Positions 1,820-58,675 of a DNA stretch of 64,000 bases are shown piece by piece. Origin of the DNA: Fundidesulfovibrio putealis DSM 16056. Its GTDB lineage: Bacteria > Desulfobacterota > Desulfovibrionia > Desulfovibrionales > Desulfovibrionaceae. Where the stretch lies: contig NZ_AUBQ01000017.1 of NCBI RefSeq assembly GCF_000429325.1, positions 1 to 64,000 on the forward strand, given 5' to 3'. Under the pieces are notes generated by a model that was given only the letters and a program-made list of their open reading frames with translations, searched no databases and was not told the DNA's origin. Within the stretch, counting starts at the first letter, position 1. The number at the start of each line of letters is the position of its first letter. The position numbers and the translations under genes were made by a program.

Positions 1820-1929
1820 CTAGTGTGGCGTCCTCAAATAAATGCGCATTTATTATGAAGATAATAATTTGGAATTATTATTTTTATCCTTGCAAAACAT
1901 GTTCATGTTTTTCAAGGACGCGACTCTAG
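1820..1929. repeat. CTAG-bounded palindromic repeat, copy A
   Basis: A 110-bp AT-rich island in GC-rich DNA that starts and ends with CTAG. The left end reads CTAGTGTGGCGTCCTC, and the reverse complement of the right end reads CTAGAGTCGCGTCCTTG, giving imperfect terminal inverted repeats. Inside are two hairpins: 9-bp perfect arms ATAATAATT/AATTATTAT at 1861-1881, and AAAACATG/CATGTTTT at 1895-1910. The first 22 bases are identical to copy B (56457-56562), and the right ~35 bases resemble copies B and C. The right-hand CTAG (1926-1929) contains the stop codon of the minus-strand HDOD gene. No transposase is encoded; it could be a MITE-like or REP-like element, possibly acting as a terminator. 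Confidence 0.75.
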
Positions 1930-51592: not shown

Positions 51593-51717
51593 CAGGAGTG
51601 CGTTCGCTTTTCGTCGACCGGCCTGTTTGAACGCAAGCCGAACGTTGCGGCCCCGGGAGACAATCTCCCGGAAACACTGACGACTTGTGGTGACGAAACC
51701 AACGGACGCGAAACATC

Positions 51718-51757
51718 AGGCCGGGCCGGGAGAATACCCCGGCCCGGCCTTTTTTTT
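51718..51757 (+). terminator. Rho-independent terminator of hsp20 operon
   Basis: AGGCCGGGCCGGG/CCCGGCCCGGCCT stem with a 7-base loop and a following run of T. Confidence 0.92.
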
Positions 51758-51854
51758 CCCGCGACGCGGAAACGTCACTCTCTGCCGCTGGACAGCGCGC
51801 CCTGTTTATCGCATAGGAGGATCAAGAACACTTTCCTGCAGTGAGAATACAGCA

Positions 51855-52100
51855 ATGAGCACCAGTGCGTACCACGTCGTCCTGACCAGAAACGAAGTCG
51901 GATATTTTGCCCATTGTCCCAGCGTGAACGGCTGCCATGGACTGGGCGAAACCCCCGAAGAAGCCCTGGCCGGTTTCAAGGCGTCCCTGGAATTCTACGT
52001 CCAGACCCTGCCGGACGCCCAGGGCCGCGACTTGCTGAAAAGCGTGAACCTGGGCTTGCACCCCGAAGGCCTCTCCGGCCAGTTCGCCCAGGCGCGCTGA
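51855..52100 (+). CDS. Orphan HicB-like protein
   Basis: An 81-residue protein with the HicB-type fold: HVVLTRNEVGYFAHCPSVNG then CHGLGETPEEALAGFKASLE. It is half of a typical HicB; no DNA-binding ribbon-helix-helix C terminus and no HicA gene accompany it. Such stand-alone proteins occur outside toxin-antitoxin pairs. The start at ATG 51855 is by homology; the open frame begins at 51687 without a site. Clearly distinct from the hicAB pair at 56758. Confidence 0.65.
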   Translation: MSTSAYHVVLTRNEVGYFAHCPSVNGCHGLGETPEEALAGFKASLEFYVQTLPDAQGRDLLKSVNLGLHPEGLSGQFAQAR

Positions 52101-54072: not shown

Positions 54073-56460
54073 ATGCACACCTCCATGAGACGCTCTCACA
54101 AGTTCCGGGGACAACCTCCATCGCGACACTCCCGGCCTGTTCAGGGGATCGCTCCGGCCCTGCGGCGTCTGGCGCGCGCCGGTTCGTTCACGTTCCTGCT
54201 GGCCTTGTCCTGTCTGCTCTGCCTGCACCCGGCGCAGGCTTCCAATTCTCAAAGCTCCTCCCACGGCCAGACGTCTCTGATCCGACTGCAACTGAAGTGG
54301 AAGCATCAGTTCCAGTTCGCCGGGTATTACGCCGCCATCGAAAAGGGTTTCTTTGCCAGGGAGGGCCTGCGCGTCGAGCTGCTCGAAGGCGTTCCCGGCT
54401 TCACGCCCTCCGAGCGCCTGTTCACCGGACAGGCCGAGTACGCGGTGGATTCCACGGCCATACTCCTCCAGCGCCAGAAAGGCCGGAAAGTGGTGGCTCT
54501 GGCGGCCATATTCCAGCACTCCCCCAACATCGTCATGACCCGGCGCGACAGCGGCCTCACCACGCCGCAATCCCTGATGGGCAAGCGCATCATGTTCACC
54601 GACCCCACAGACCCCGAATGCCACGCCATGCTGGCCAACGAGGGCGTCTTCCCCAAGGACTACACCGTGCTCCCCCATACCTGGAGCATCGACGCCCTAG
54701 TGAACGGCACAGTGGACGCCATGTCCGCCTACCTCACCAACGAACCGTTCCTCATGGAACAGCGCGGGGTCGCTCCAGGCGTCATCTTCCCCAACCAGTA
54801 TGCAGTTGACTTCTACGGGGATTGCCTGACCACGTCCGAGGCCGAAATAACCGAGCATCCGCGCAGGGTCGAAGCCTTCCTGCGCGCCGTGAACGACGGC
54901 TGGCGCTATGCCATGGCCAACCCCGAGGAGATCGCGAACCTGATCCTGGCGCGCTATCCCACCTCGAAATCCCGCCAGGAACTGCTGTTCGAGGCCGAGG
55001 CCATGCGCAAGCTGATTCTTCCCGACATGGTGGAGATCGGGCACATGAACCCGTCGCGCTGGAAACACATCGCGCAGACCTACGAACGCCTGGGCATGCT
55101 CCCCGCCGATTTCAACATGGAGGGGCTTCTGTATCCCGAATTCAAGCAGGCCAGGGAGGAGCGCGACCGGCTTACCGTGAACATCTTCCTGGCGGCCACC
55201 GGCGCGATGGCGGTGCTCGCGGCCGCGGGCGGCGTGGTCCTGCTGGTCTTCAACAAGCGCCTGAGCCGCATGGTCGCCGAGCGCACCCGGGAACTGGAAC
55301 AGTCCCGCGATTTTTTCCAGAACGTCATCAACAGCACCTCCGACCCCATTTTCGTGAAGGACGCGGAGCACCGCTACGTGCTGACCAACGACTCGACCGC
55401 GCTGTTGTTCGGCAGGAAACCCCAGGACGTCGTCGGGCTCACGGACTTCGATATCTTCCCGCAGGAACACGCCCTAGCCATCAGGGTGAAGGACGAGGCC
55501 GTCAGGGACAGCGGGCGCGAAGACCTCTTCGAGGAATGCCTGCCCGACAGCACCGGAGCTATGCGCAACTTCCTGACCAGGAAAACCCCCTACACCGACA
55601 GCTCCGGCAGGGCCTTCATCCTCGGCGTGGTCCGCGACATCACGGAATTCAAGCGCATGCAGGACATGGTGGTCCAGGCCGAAAAGATGATGTCGCTTGG
55701 CGGGCTGGCCGCCGGAATGGCCCACGAGATCAACAATCCGCTGGGCATCGTCATGCAGTCCGCCCAGAACCTGCATCGCCGCCTCTTCGAAAGCCTGGAC
55801 GCCAACCGGCAGGCCGCCGAAGAGCTGGGCCTGGATCGCGACGCCATGACGGCCTACATGCGCCAAAGGGGCATCCTGGACGCGGTAAGCGACATCCGGG
55901 AGGCCGGGCAGCGGGCTGCGGCCATCGTCAAGAACATGCTGGAGTTCAGCCGCAAGAGCGAATCAGGGAAAGAGCCATGCGACCTCGCGGCCATCACCGA
56001 GAACGTCCTGGGCATCGTCTCCAGCGACTACGACCTCGCCAAGCGCTATGATTTCAAAAAGATCGACATCAGGAAGGACTATTCCCCGCAATCCTTCCCG
56101 GTGCCCTGCTCGCGCACCAAGATCGGACAGGTCATCCTGAACATCCTCAAGAACGCCGTGCAGGCCATGTCCGCAAACACGCAGGCCGCCGCGCCCAGGC
56201 TGTCCATACGGATACGGCCGGAAGGCGATTTCATGCGACTGGACCTGGAGGACAACGGCCCCGGCATGGACGAAGCCGTGCGCAAGCGCATCTTCGAGCC
56301 GTTCTTTACCACCAAGGGCACGGGCGAAGGCACGGGACTTGGCATGTTCGTGTCCTACAGCATCGTCAGCGAACACCACGGCGGACAACTGCTGGTGGAT
56401 TCAGCCCCCGGCCAGGGGACCACCTTCTCCATCCTGCTGCCGCGCGAACCCGCCGCCTAG
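54073..56460 (+). CDS. Sensor histidine kinase with ThiY/NMT1-like periplasmic domain
   Basis: A 795-residue kinase. After an N-terminal signal/TM (about residues 38-56) comes a periplasmic NMT1/ThiY-like solute-binding domain (RLQLKWKHQFQFAGYYAAIE, GQAEYAVDSTAILLQ, DPECHAMLANEGVF) to about 365. TM2 follows (FLAATGAMAVLAAAGGVVLL), then PAS (NSTSDPIFVKDAEHRYVLTN). The phospho-acceptor His is in LAAGMAHEINNPLGIVMQSA, and the ATPase in NILKNAVQAM, DNGPGMDEA and GTGLGMFVSYSI. The response regulator is not adjacent. It senses a pyrimidine- or sulfonate-like ligand by family analogy only. The TAG stop is in the CTAG end of repeat copy B, and its last 57 bases recur at 57443-57499. Confidence 0.9.
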   Translation: MHTSMRRSHKFRGQPPSRHSRPVQGIAPALRRLARAGSFTFLLALSCLLCLHPAQASNSQSSSHGQTSLIRLQLKWKHQFQFAGYYAAIEKGFFAREGLRVELLEGVPGFTPSERLFTGQAEYAVDSTAILLQRQKGRKVVALAAIFQHSPNIVMTRRDSGLTTPQSLMGKRIMFTDPTDPECHAMLANEGVFPKDYTVLPHTWSIDALVNGTVDAMSAYLTNEPFLMEQRGVAPGVIFPNQYAVDFYGDCLTTSEAEITEHPRRVEAFLRAVNDGWRYAMANPEEIANLILARYPTSKSRQELLFEAEAMRKLILPDMVEIGHMNPSRWKHIAQTYERLGMLPADFNMEGLLYPEFKQAREERDRLTVNIFLAATGAMAVLAAAGGVVLLVFNKRLSRMVAERTRELEQSRDFFQNVINSTSDPIFVKDAEHRYVLTNDSTALLFGRKPQDVVGLTDFDIFPQEHALAIRVKDEAVRDSGREDLFEECLPDSTGAMRNFLTRKTPYTDSSGRAFILGVVRDITEFKRMQDMVVQAEKMMSLGGLAAGMAHEINNPLGIVMQSAQNLHRRLFESLDANRQAAEELGLDRDAMTAYMRQRGILDAVSDIREAGQRAAAIVKNMLEFSRKSESGKEPCDLAAITENVLGIVSSDYDLAKRYDFKKIDIRKDYSPQSFPVPCSRTKIGQVILNILKNAVQAMSANTQAAAPRLSIRIRPEGDFMRLDLEDNGPGMDEAVRKRIFEPFFTTKGTGEGTGLGMFVSYSIVSEHHGGQLLVDSAPGQGTTFSILLPREPAA
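56400..56456 (+). repeat. 57-bp direct repeat, left copy (kinase 3' end)
   Basis: The last 57 bases of the kinase gene before its CTAG stop. Matches 57443-57499 at 56 of 57 positions (one C/A change at the seventh base). Confidence 0.9.
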
Positions 56461-56562
56461 TGTGGCGTCCTCAAATAACGTTCATACAATTTACAAGCAC
56501 AAACCAAGAGAACTATTGACTTTTTATAAACATGCTCATGTATTTCAAAGCCGCGTCACTAG
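56457..56562. repeat. CTAG-bounded palindromic repeat, copy B
   Basis: A 106-bp AT-rich element with CTAG at both ends. The left 22 bases equal copy A. The left end begins CTAGTGTGGCGTCC and the reverse-complemented right end begins CTAGTGACGCGGC. It carries a near-palindrome ACATGctCATGT in its right half. The left CTAG supplies the stop codon of the upstream kinase. Confidence 0.75.
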
Positions 56563-56720
56563 GGCGCGGTTGAGCCACGCGGCCATCGGCTTCTCTGATT
56601 CTCGCCACTCCCCGGATGCTTTCCAGAAGAGGCATACTTCCTGAGATACGTCCTCCCTTGCATTAGAAACACGCTCACCATCGCTATCATGCGACTCGCT
56701 GCCAACGGAACGCGTCCACC

Positions 56721-56749
56721 TTGACGGTGTGGATAAGTATGGATATATT
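56721..56749 (+). promoter_or_regulatory. hicAB promoter
   Basis: TTGACG at 56721-56726, a 17-base spacer, and TATATT at 56744-56749. The start of transcription would fall within a few bases of the hicA ATG (56758), and no ribosome site is present, so hicA is likely translated from a leaderless or near-leaderless message. Confidence 0.65.
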
Positions 56750-56757
56750 TTTCTTCT

Positions 56758-56958
56758 ATGAATAGCAGGGACGTGATCCAGGCACTTGAAGCCGAGGGTT
56801 GGAAGCATGTGCGCACCACCGGGAGCCATTGGCACTTCAAGCACGGCACCCGCCCGGGGATCGTCACTGTGCCCCACCCGAAAAAGGACCTGCCCCTGGG
56901 CACGATCAGAAGCGTTGAAAAACAGTCGGGGGTAAATCTGCGCGGGTCGCGATTTTGA
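56758..56958 (+). CDS. hicA: HicA toxin (mRNA interferase)
   Basis: A 66-residue HicA toxin, a small dsRNA-binding-fold RNase that cleaves mRNA until neutralised by HicB. Its sequence MNSRDVIQALEAEGWKHVRT is typical. The catalytic His24 is in TGSHWHFKHG, and the GIVTVPHPKKDLPLGTIRS end is canonical. First gene of the pair; hicB follows after 74 bases. It lies inside a ~1 kb insert flanked by 57-bp direct repeats. No ribosome site precedes it. Confidence 0.93.
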   Translation: MNSRDVIQALEAEGWKHVRTTGSHWHFKHGTRPGIVTVPHPKKDLPLGTIRSVEKQSGVNLRGSRF

Positions 56959-57032
56959 AAACAGTATCGTGCCCAGGTGTTACATCCTGGCTCGCATCAA
57001 CTGCTTTCGCGGACGCATCGCGAGGAGAAGAT

Positions 57033-57428
57033 ATGAGCGCATATATCGGAATTATCCATAAGGAAGCTGACAGCGACTTCGGGGTGAGTTTTCCCGACTT
57101 CCCTGGTTGCATCACCGCAGGAAGCGACATGAACGAAGCTGCTTCAATGGCCAAAGAGGCCCTGGCAGGGCATGTCGCCCTGCTGGCTGAAAATGGGGAA
57201 AACGTCCCGGCGCCGTCGAGCCTGGACGCCGTGCAAGGCCATGAGTTCGCCGCCGGGGCGGTGGCCTACATTGTGGTGGATGTGCCTGTCGCCCCACGCC
57301 GCGCGGTGAAGGTGAGCATCACCATCCCGGAAGACGATCTGGTCTCCATCGACCGTTACGCCAAGGCCCATGGGATGGCCCGCAGCACGTTCCTGGTGCA
57401 AGCGGCAAGGTCGGTGATGCACGGTTGA
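57033..57428 (+). CDS. hicB: HicB antitoxin
   Basis: A 131-residue HicB antitoxin that binds and blocks HicA and represses the hicAB promoter. The N-terminal partial-RNase-H part has YIGIIHKEADSDFGVSFPDF and PGCITAGSDMNEAASMAKEA. The C-terminal DNA-binding ribbon-helix-helix is RRAVKVSITIPEDDLVSIDR...HGMARSTFLVQAAR. ATG 57033 has GAGGAGA upstream, in contrast to hicA; the frame is open to 56955. Downstream lies the second 57-bp repeat. Confidence 0.92.
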   Translation: MSAYIGIIHKEADSDFGVSFPDFPGCITAGSDMNEAASMAKEALAGHVALLAENGENVPAPSSLDAVQGHEFAAGAVAYIVVDVPVAPRRAVKVSITIPEDDLVSIDRYAKAHGMARSTFLVQAARSVMHG

Positions 57429-57442
57429 TGGGACGGCTTTTG

Positions 57443-57499
57443 TTCAGCACCCGGCCAGGGGACCACCTTCTCCATCCTGCTGCCGCGCGAACCCGCCGC
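57443..57499 (+). repeat. 57-bp direct repeat, right copy
   Basis: A second copy of the kinase 3' end. Here it is followed by GTAAGG, so the reading frame ends GCG TAA rather than GCC TAG; this probably is the ancestral kinase end, left behind the insert. Confidence 0.85.
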
Positions 57500-57544
57500 G
57501 TAAGGCGCGAACACTCCACTTCCGCCTGAATCAAGGAGGATTCC

Positions 57545-58219
57545 ATGAATCGCCGCGAATTCATCGAGACAGGAGCCGTCCTGGCCGCCAGCGCCGTATT
57601 GGCCGCGAGCGTGGCACCCCCCGGCGTGGCCTCGGCCCAGGCGCAGGACATGCCTCTCCCCCCGCCCCGGACCACCGGCGGCAAGCCCCTCATGGACGCC
57701 CTCATGGAGCGGCGCTCCACCAGGCGTTTCGCCCCCAAAGCCCTTGAGCCGCAGGTCCTGTCCGACCTGCTGTGGGCGGCCTTCGGCATCAACCGTACCG
57801 ATGGCTCGAACAAGCGCACCGCACCCTCCTGGAAGAACCGCCAGGAGATGGCCGTCTATGTGGCCATGCCGACCGGTCTGTTCCGCTACGACGCCAAGCG
57901 CCACGCCCTGGCCCCGGTCTCTGGCAAGGACCTGCGCGCGCTGACCGGCAAGCAGGACTTCGTGGCCACGGCTCCCCTGAACCTCATTTATGTGGTCGAT
58001 TTCGCGCAGATGAGCGAGGCCTCGCCTGAAGAACGGATGTTCGTCGCAGGGTGCGACTCCGGGTCCATCTTCCAGAACGTCTACCTGGCCTGCGCCTCGC
58101 TGGGGCTGGTTACGGTGGTCCGGGCCAACGCGGACAAGTCCGCCCTGGCCAGGGAAATGAACCTCGGCGCGGACCAGATGGTCACGCTGGCGCAGACGGT
58201 GGGGTACCCGGCGGGATAA
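57545..58219 (+). CDS. Tat-exported nitroreductase-family protein
   Basis: A 224-residue FMN-dependent nitroreductase-like protein, of the SagB-type. It has a twin-arginine signal (NRREFIETGAVLAASAVLAA). The core has LMDALMERRSTRRFAPKALE, LSDLLWAAFGINRTDGSNKR, CDSGSIFQNVYLACASLGL and GADQMVTLAQTVGYPAG. The substrate is unknown; Tat export fits folding with FMN in the cytoplasm. GGAGG lies before ATG 57545. Probably the original neighbour of the kinase gene before the hicAB insert. Confidence 0.88.
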   Translation: MNRREFIETGAVLAASAVLAASVAPPGVASAQAQDMPLPPPRTTGGKPLMDALMERRSTRRFAPKALEPQVLSDLLWAAFGINRTDGSNKRTAPSWKNRQEMAVYVAMPTGLFRYDAKRHALAPVSGKDLRALTGKQDFVATAPLNLIYVVDFAQMSEASPEERMFVAGCDSGSIFQNVYLACASLGLVTVVRANADKSALAREMNLGADQMVTLAQTVGYPAG

Positions 58220-58246: not shown

Positions 58247-58675
58247 TCAGGGCCTTTCCTTCAGGAGATCCACCAGTTCGTCCACGCTGCGCACGATGGC
58301 CTCGCAGCTGGCGTGGATCATGGCGTTGACGCACGCGCCCGGAACGTCTCCGGCCCGGCGGAAGTCGGTCCTGACGCCGACGACGGGGATGCCCCTGGCG
58401 TGGGCGTAGCCGATCTCCCAGGCGGTGCCGTCGTCCACCTGGGGACCGTCGAGCAGGGCCACCACCAGGCCGCAGGCGGCCAGGGCGTCCCGGCAGTCTG
58501 TCATGATGACGCGCGGGGCGTCCGCTCCCCATTTGGCGATCTCGTCCTGGTCGAACAACTCGAAGGGCCAGATGACCGTATGGCCGGTCTCGACCTCGAT
58601 GCGGGCTTTCGTGGCGCGGTGCCACTGCCGATCGGCTTGCGAAAAAAGTGGTCCGGCTAGATAGATGGTAGGCAT
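58247..58675 (-). CDS. Nucleoside 2-deoxyribosyltransferase family protein
   Basis: A 142-residue protein of the nucleoside 2-deoxyribosyltransferase/DUF4406-like fold, which moves deoxyribose between bases or hydrolyses nucleotides. It begins IYLAGPLFSQADRQWHRATK and contains VVALLDGPQVDDGTAWEIGYAHARG, where the Glu in AWEIGYA is the expected nucleophile. The family has many unassigned members. AAGGA before ATG 58675. Convergent with the nitroreductase. Confidence 0.82.
   Translation of the reverse strand: MPTIYLAGPLFSQADRQWHRATKARIEVETGHTVIWPFELFDQDEIAKWGADAPRVIMTDCRDALAACGLVVALLDGPQVDDGTAWEIGYAHARGIPVVGVRTDFRRAGDVPGACVNAMIHASCEAIVRSVDELVDLLKERP

Follow-up and report, generated by a model that had tools for sequence, protein, structure and literature searches.

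Results

A hicAB pair lies between two copies of a kinase gene end

Downstream of a sensor histidine kinase gene of Fundidesulfovibrio putealis DSM 16056 lies a hicAB toxin-antitoxin pair that is enclosed by two direct copies of the kinase 3' end. The locus belongs to a 64-kb window, the whole stretch of DNA analysed here (positions 1-64,000 of contig NZ_AUBQ01000017.1), to which all position numbers refer. The kinase gene (54073..56460, + strand) showed NMT1, PAS, HisKA and HATPase_c domains in a Pfam scan and presently ends in GCC GCC TAG. The hicA toxin gene (56758..56958, + strand, 66 amino acids; PF07927, E 3e-20) and the hicB antitoxin gene (57033..57428, + strand, 131 amino acids; PF15919, E 5e-31) follow; they are adjacent, both score above the Pfam cut-off and are predicted to encode a type II toxin-antitoxin system of the HicAB family. 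Further downstream is a gene of the nitroreductase family (57545..58219, + strand; PF00881).

The last 57 nucleotides (nt) of the kinase gene (56400-56456) recur 1043 bp downstream at 57443-57499 with one mismatch (98.2% identity), and the match can be extended to 60 nt at 97% identity. After these 57 nt the left copy runs into CTAG and the right copy into GTAAGG. A sequence-only reading of this DNA had described the 57-bp repeats on both sides of hicAB correctly, but the repeat proved to be longer: when a CTAG-bounded unit (56457..56562, no strand assigned) is set aside, it resumes as GGCGCG (56563-56568 versus 57504-57509), giving a full repeat of 67 nt with mismatches at positions 7, 58 and 61 only. 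The left repeat, which resembles a left attachment (att) site, thus consists of 56400..56460 (+ strand), 61 nt that form the kinase 3' end with its stop TAG, and of the final six nucleotides beyond the CTAG unit (56563..56568, + strand). The right, attR-like repeat (57443..57509, + strand) retains TAA, the stop of the original gene end, and the DNA that originally followed it. All three mismatches are synonymous in the kinase frame; the left copy ends in GCC TAG, the right copy retains GCG TAA, and both encode the same protein C-terminus (EPAA-stop), which had been said to be unchanged. Since GGCGCG begins at only 94 positions of the + strand of the window (0.15%), a chance match at that exact place appears unlikely, though this test was made post hoc and microhomology could also explain the match.

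We surveyed 464 kb for direct repeats, roughly 10% of the genome, made up of the window and 20 stretches of 20 kb. Apart from the kinase-end pair, no direct repeat within 8 kb reached both 50 nt and 95% identity. Seven weaker repeats in this sample (listed from at least 88% identity and at least 30 nt) reached 88-93% identity: one consists of repeated similar genes (L140), three are intergenic or terminator-like (L141, L147, L152), and the others are L143 (317 nt), L153 and L155.

A relative carries the empty site

The locus was compared across 59 genomes, our own and 58 relatives. In G006, a member of the same genus, the kinase and nitroreductase genes are adjacent, the repeat is present as a single copy and the kinase ends in GCGTAA (GCGTAAGGCGC), as in the right copy here. 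The flanks align over about 4.9 kb on the left at 87% and 5.8 kb on the right at 90% identity, and the 874 bp of inserted DNA (56569..57442, + strand) are missing. This is the arrangement that the sequence-only reading, which proposed insertion at the kinase 3' end with restoration of the reading frame, had predicted for an uninterrupted site, and it was found in G006 only. Because G006 has this single-copy empty site, the insertion into the kinase 3' end is real and the gene end was restored. G006 is a metagenome assembly that is 66% complete; a simple assembly skip is an unlikely cause of its empty site, since the insert did not turn up at another place in G006, nor in any of the five other congeners. 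Matching kinases in G005, G001 and G003 end beside other DNA, so that G006 is the one genome that provides the empty site.

Differences between the repeat copies

Over 61 nt, the left and right copies differ from each other at three positions and from G006 at seven and six, respectively. As the copies differ less from each other than from G006, the insertion is probably younger than the split from G006, unless the copies were converted. The middle 50 nt of the 67-nt repeat are identical between the copies; with three random mismatches in 67 nt, a clean run of at least 50 has a probability of P 0.057. The bases of G006 are C7, G58 and A61. Derived A7 is present in the right copy only and derived C58 and G61 in the left copy only, which places the derived bases on the insert-facing side of each copy. 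This is the reciprocal pattern that would be expected from one crossover of the chromosomal site with an incoming copy bearing all three changes, and we regard it as moderate evidence for such an event. If each change were random between the copies, the same arrangement would arise in 1 of 8 cases, a value reasoned rather than computed.

The closeness of the two copies (3 of 61 positions, against 6-7 of 61 to G006) would also be expected if the kinase end had been duplicated at the target. In such a scheme, which we regard as rather unlikely, hicAB-bearing DNA was taken up either where the chromosome had broken with staggered ends or when replication switched templates; roughly 60 nt of the kinase end were copied in the process, and the three mismatches arose later by mutation. 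The ragged look of the insert ends, with a sigma-factor-like remnant at the left junction and a GGCGCG match that could be microhomology, are consistent with it; the insert-facing position of the derived bases in both copies speaks against it, as does the failure to find Ku in our own genome. Ku was found in none of seven genomes of the genus, our own included, and in one of the 13 genomes searched, that one from another family; end joining with fill-in is disfavoured for this reason and was set aside as unlikely. To our knowledge, a transposon target duplication of such length is not a well-known type, which we count as a further point against this scheme. A transposon would be expected to make short duplications of one fixed length at several copies; our own genome contains no second copy of the insert, and the repeat is 67 nt long and imperfect.

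The CTAG unit is a separate, dispersed element

The unit that interrupts the left repeat has inverted ends (GTGTGGCG../..CGCGTCAC) with CTAG on both sides. The sequence-only reading suspected that this repeat had moved the toxin-antitoxin pair. A search of our own genome with positions 56456-56566 (E up to 0.1) returned 27 matches including the kinase locus; six of the 26 others span only 18-37 nt. In many copies the ends are inverted (GTGTSGCG and its complement), the interior holds a palindrome, and CTAG stands at one edge or at both; several copies are partial or have decayed ends. The unit is too short for a transposase gene and, with its dispersed copies and inverted ends, is classed as a miniature inverted-repeat element. 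When 14 flank pairs were compared with G006, four were filled, the gap being about as long as the element, two had larger gaps, five were empty or nearly so and three allowed no call. At three of the five empty aligned sites (L030, L034 and L035) CTAG is already present in the G006 target; the other two gave no clear reading.

This pattern fits insertion into the TA within CTAG, as in IS630-type elements, and our use of that family name is tentative, being based on target and ends alone. A CTAG preference of IS630-type elements is reportedly the subject of a 1991 study by Tenzen and Ohtsubo, to go by its title. The likeness extends to the inverted ends, the dispersal and the pre-existing CTAG at three of five compared sites, and targeting of TA by IS630-type elements is described in the excerpted part of a published account (PMC2170065). 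Our genome differs in that a search for IS630-type transposases found no intact gene and only one DDE_3 fragment; other transposase families were not searched, and for both reasons the name stays tentative. The fragment lies in a frame of 75 amino acids, with no ends like those of the CTAG element within 1.5 kb of it.

Might the CTAG element itself have brought hicAB here? In favour of this, the 57-nt repeat stops just where the element has its outer end, a 20-nt near-match straddles the copy L039 (none of 60 shuffles as good), and L002 has a palindromic 16-nt match (one of 60). The repeat resumes past the element, however, CTAG pre-exists at three of the five compared empty sites, and relatives of hicA or hicB lie within 1.5 kb of none of the 26 other loci. 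Nor does a long near-identical repeat straddle another copy in the 1.5-kb flanks; one copy, L003, is straddled by a repeat of 72% identity. We rejected the element as the vehicle of hicAB on the basis of these loci without hicAB, the pre-existing CTAG targets and the lack of near-identical straddling repeats, and consider such a role highly improbable. The suspicion that it had moved the pair was thus not borne out: with 26 other matches, the unit is a dispersed element of its own, and within the 1.5-kb flanks none of its other loci combines a hicA or hicB relative with a long near-identical repeat. Since the target at three of five compared sites is a pre-existing CTAG, we take the copy at the kinase to be most plausibly a second insertion that hit the left repeat independently.

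Divergence is not informative on the age of this copy, whose nearest relative is 83% identical; the corresponding values for the five copies at G006 empty sites are 80, 81, 85, 88 and 94%. At L039 (G000:C10:114180-114262), the left edge of the element and the right flank share 20 nt (18 matching) that resemble a gene 3' end, which may have arisen by a small duplication of that end or by conversion. At L034 (G000:C3:93998-94106), about 46 extra bases beside the element are missing in G006 and are bounded by a repeated TGCCCGGC. Further repeats (window 1820-1841, L043, L048 and L049) have only the first 18-22 or so bases in common with the element (CTAGTGTGGCGTCCTCAAA) and then differ, which suggests several miniature families with common ends.

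Content and relatives of the insert

The GC (guanine plus cytosine) content of the insert is 58%, within the lowest 4.7% of 880 sampled segments. A promoter-like site, TTGACG-17-TATATT (56721..56749, + strand), stands 5' of hicA; one such site was found against 0.7 expected in shuffles. In the empty arrangement the nitroreductase gene starts 41 bp past the kinase stop; here the distance has grown to about 1.1 kb and includes this site, and to judge from the layout, expression of the nitroreductase gene may have changed as a consequence. At the left junction there is weak similarity to sigma-70 region 2 (56566..56658, - strand), possibly a gene remnant cut at the junction, with E values below cut-off for both Pfam (0.055-0.077, curated cut-off) and NCBIfam sigma-factor models (0.007-0.08).

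Both genes match phage protein families classed as moron genes (PHROG 353 and 497), in the order toxin then antitoxin. In a scan of viral contigs, hicB relatives were present in four (L092-L095), and the nearest hicAB relative found is in L092, with 74% identity for HicA and 76% for HicB. DNA similarity to L092 covers 56720-57420, starting at the promoter-like site, and the L092 pair lies about 1.3 kb from a phage-type repressor. The gap between hicA and hicB is 74 bp here (56959-57032) and 8 bp in L092, so the spacer would have been lengthened here or shortened in L092. Given the nearby phage-type repressor in L092 and the low GC content of the insert, arrival of hicAB on a temperate phage or similar element fits; everything except the addiction module would then have been lost, a step that we infer.

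The insert was also sought in 288 family genomes, with at most two best candidates per genome. Among the matches listed, 18 genomes matched, our own included, and none of the six congeners; the best foreign matches listed were 67% over 365 bp and 86% over 80 bp, and none represents a close hicAB copy. A plasmid search returned 15 records, all from rhizobial genera and matching part of hicB only. Two comparisons at the edges of the insert, both post hoc, yielded similarities that we leave unexplained: the best of eight comparisons of its left part with kinase or downstream DNA was equalled by 15 of 200 shuffles, and the edge-anchored match of its first bases to the start of the repeat core by 5 of 300 random positions.

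Two neighbouring genes deserve mention. A small open reading frame at 51687-52100, about 4.6 kb upstream of the inserted pair, looks HicB-like by eye; its scanned part (51855-52097) had no Pfam match. A gene resembling nucleoside deoxyribosyltransferases (58247-58675) is matched at 76% DNA identity by a stretch next to hicAB in L092 (2463-2918). It was rejected as part of the insert and is host DNA, because the alignment with G006 runs unbroken through the gene although the insert is missing there.

Discussion

We propose that the locus was left by an element, perhaps a temperate phage, that had integrated site-specifically, was reduced to hicAB and suffered a secondary hit by a miniature element; in our judgement this proposal stands about evenly between right and wrong. 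A circular DNA with hicAB and its own 67-nt version of the kinase 3' end would have recombined once with the chromosome within that stretch. The kinase would thereby have gained a new 3' end that differs only synonymously (GCC TAG for GCG TAA), and its former end, displaced downstream, would have become the second repeat. The element would then have been reduced to the hicAB module, or might always have been mobilised in trans. The CTAG-targeting miniature element could later have hit the new TAG stop, or could already have been present in the incoming copy.

Several observations weigh against such an origin. Our genome has 22 matches to tyrosine recombinases, and none of these 22 integrase places is between the repeats, in agreement with the sequence-only reading, which had noted an integrative-element layout devoid of an integrase; an integrase encoded elsewhere in the genome could have acted in trans. 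Flanks of at most about 1.5 kb were searched at 20 of these 22 places; none contains the repeat core, the best match being 28 nt at 78.6% identity (E 0.053), and as an exact 26-mer the core was absent from the viral contigs. In 285 family genomes, with at most three best candidates per genome, the core matched in 22, our own included, among the matches listed. Among the 22 listed places outside the kinase locus, 19 are in open frames of at least 110 amino acids with a kinase or CheA-type ATPase motif (16 called by a script, three by eye); no listed match is a clear orphan core copy, though three of the 22 allowed no call in the frame used. With the core confined so largely to kinase-type frames, no clear case of an intact relative using the same attachment site emerged from the listed family matches or from the exact 26-mer search of viral contigs. 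The empty site is known from one genome, and that a 66% complete metagenome assembly. The mismatch argument concerns three sites and was made after seeing them, and the two changes in the left copy are under coding constraint. The weak sigma-like stretch runs up to the left junction, which looks more like the ragged edge of a fragment than like an att arm. A 95%-identical kinase end on a foreign element implies a species-adapted element, as the kinase end is about 10% different in the congener. What is shown is the insertion, the empty site in one relative, the longer repeat and the independence of the dispersed CTAG element; the circular form, its integrase and the disappearance of the remaining element are reconstructed, and the integrase-driven step is not proven.

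Two related routes would dispense with an integrase inside the element. In the first, sister-strain DNA with a GCC TAG kinase end entered by a RecA-type single crossover or homology-facilitated uptake, with no dedicated integrase. A homologous stretch alone suffices for this, and both the reciprocal base pattern and the lack of an integrase between the repeats accord with it. It requires a donor DNA that joins only the last 67 nt of the kinase to hicAB, of which there was none among the matches listed, and 67 nt is short for efficient RecA recombination. We consider this route improbable. Somewhat more doubtful still is the second, a minimal integrating toxin-antitoxin cassette of less than 0.9 kb, in which hicAB and an att-like kinase end, served by an integrase in trans, would make an addiction module a mobile element in its own right that leaves the target gene unharmed.

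The filled and empty sites form a tidy pair that illustrates a route by which a toxin-antitoxin pair lodges in the chromosome while the target gene is spared. If the origin from an integrated element is true, the locus also exemplifies loss of everything but an addiction module after integration. If the cassette is mobile in trans, it bears on whether toxin-antitoxin pairs can move on their own. The locus further shows how a secondary hit by a miniature element can mask the true edges of an insertion and point to a false vehicle. Among the titles and abstract openings listed in literature searches, none described hicAB flanked by duplicated ends of a gene.

Coming back to the integrated element, the layout of the locus matches a tyrosine-integrase att site whose identity block is extended and where the att site brought in takes the place of the gene end. 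The excerpted texts of two published accounts describe such blocks with gene-end replacement (PMC10111431, PMC6379469); identity blocks reach about 250 bp, with icd named (PMC10111431), and e14 is among the elements described (PMC6379469). Here, the single-copy empty site was found in G006 only, and insertion at the 3' end with replacement of that end is present; the insert contains no integrase, and no clear intact relative at the same site was recovered among the listed family matches or, by exact 26-mer, in the viral contigs. As far as the excerpts go, e14 in icd of E. coli and tyrosine-integrase islands with extended att blocks resemble our locus in that they integrate close to where a protein-coding gene ends (3'), supply it with a replacement end, leave the original end as a downstream pseudo-copy and have an empty site with one copy (PMC10111431, PMC6379469). 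They differ in scale and content: e14 is stated to measure 15,204 bp and to have a 163-bp region, whereas the insert described here is below 0.9 kb, lacks an integrase and has hicAB as its only well-supported genes. With HicAB modules carried as phage cargo our pair shares both genes and their order, and it has relatives in viral contigs L092-L095; it differs in being chromosomal, in lying between duplicated gene ends and in its 74-bp gap instead of the 8 bp in L092.

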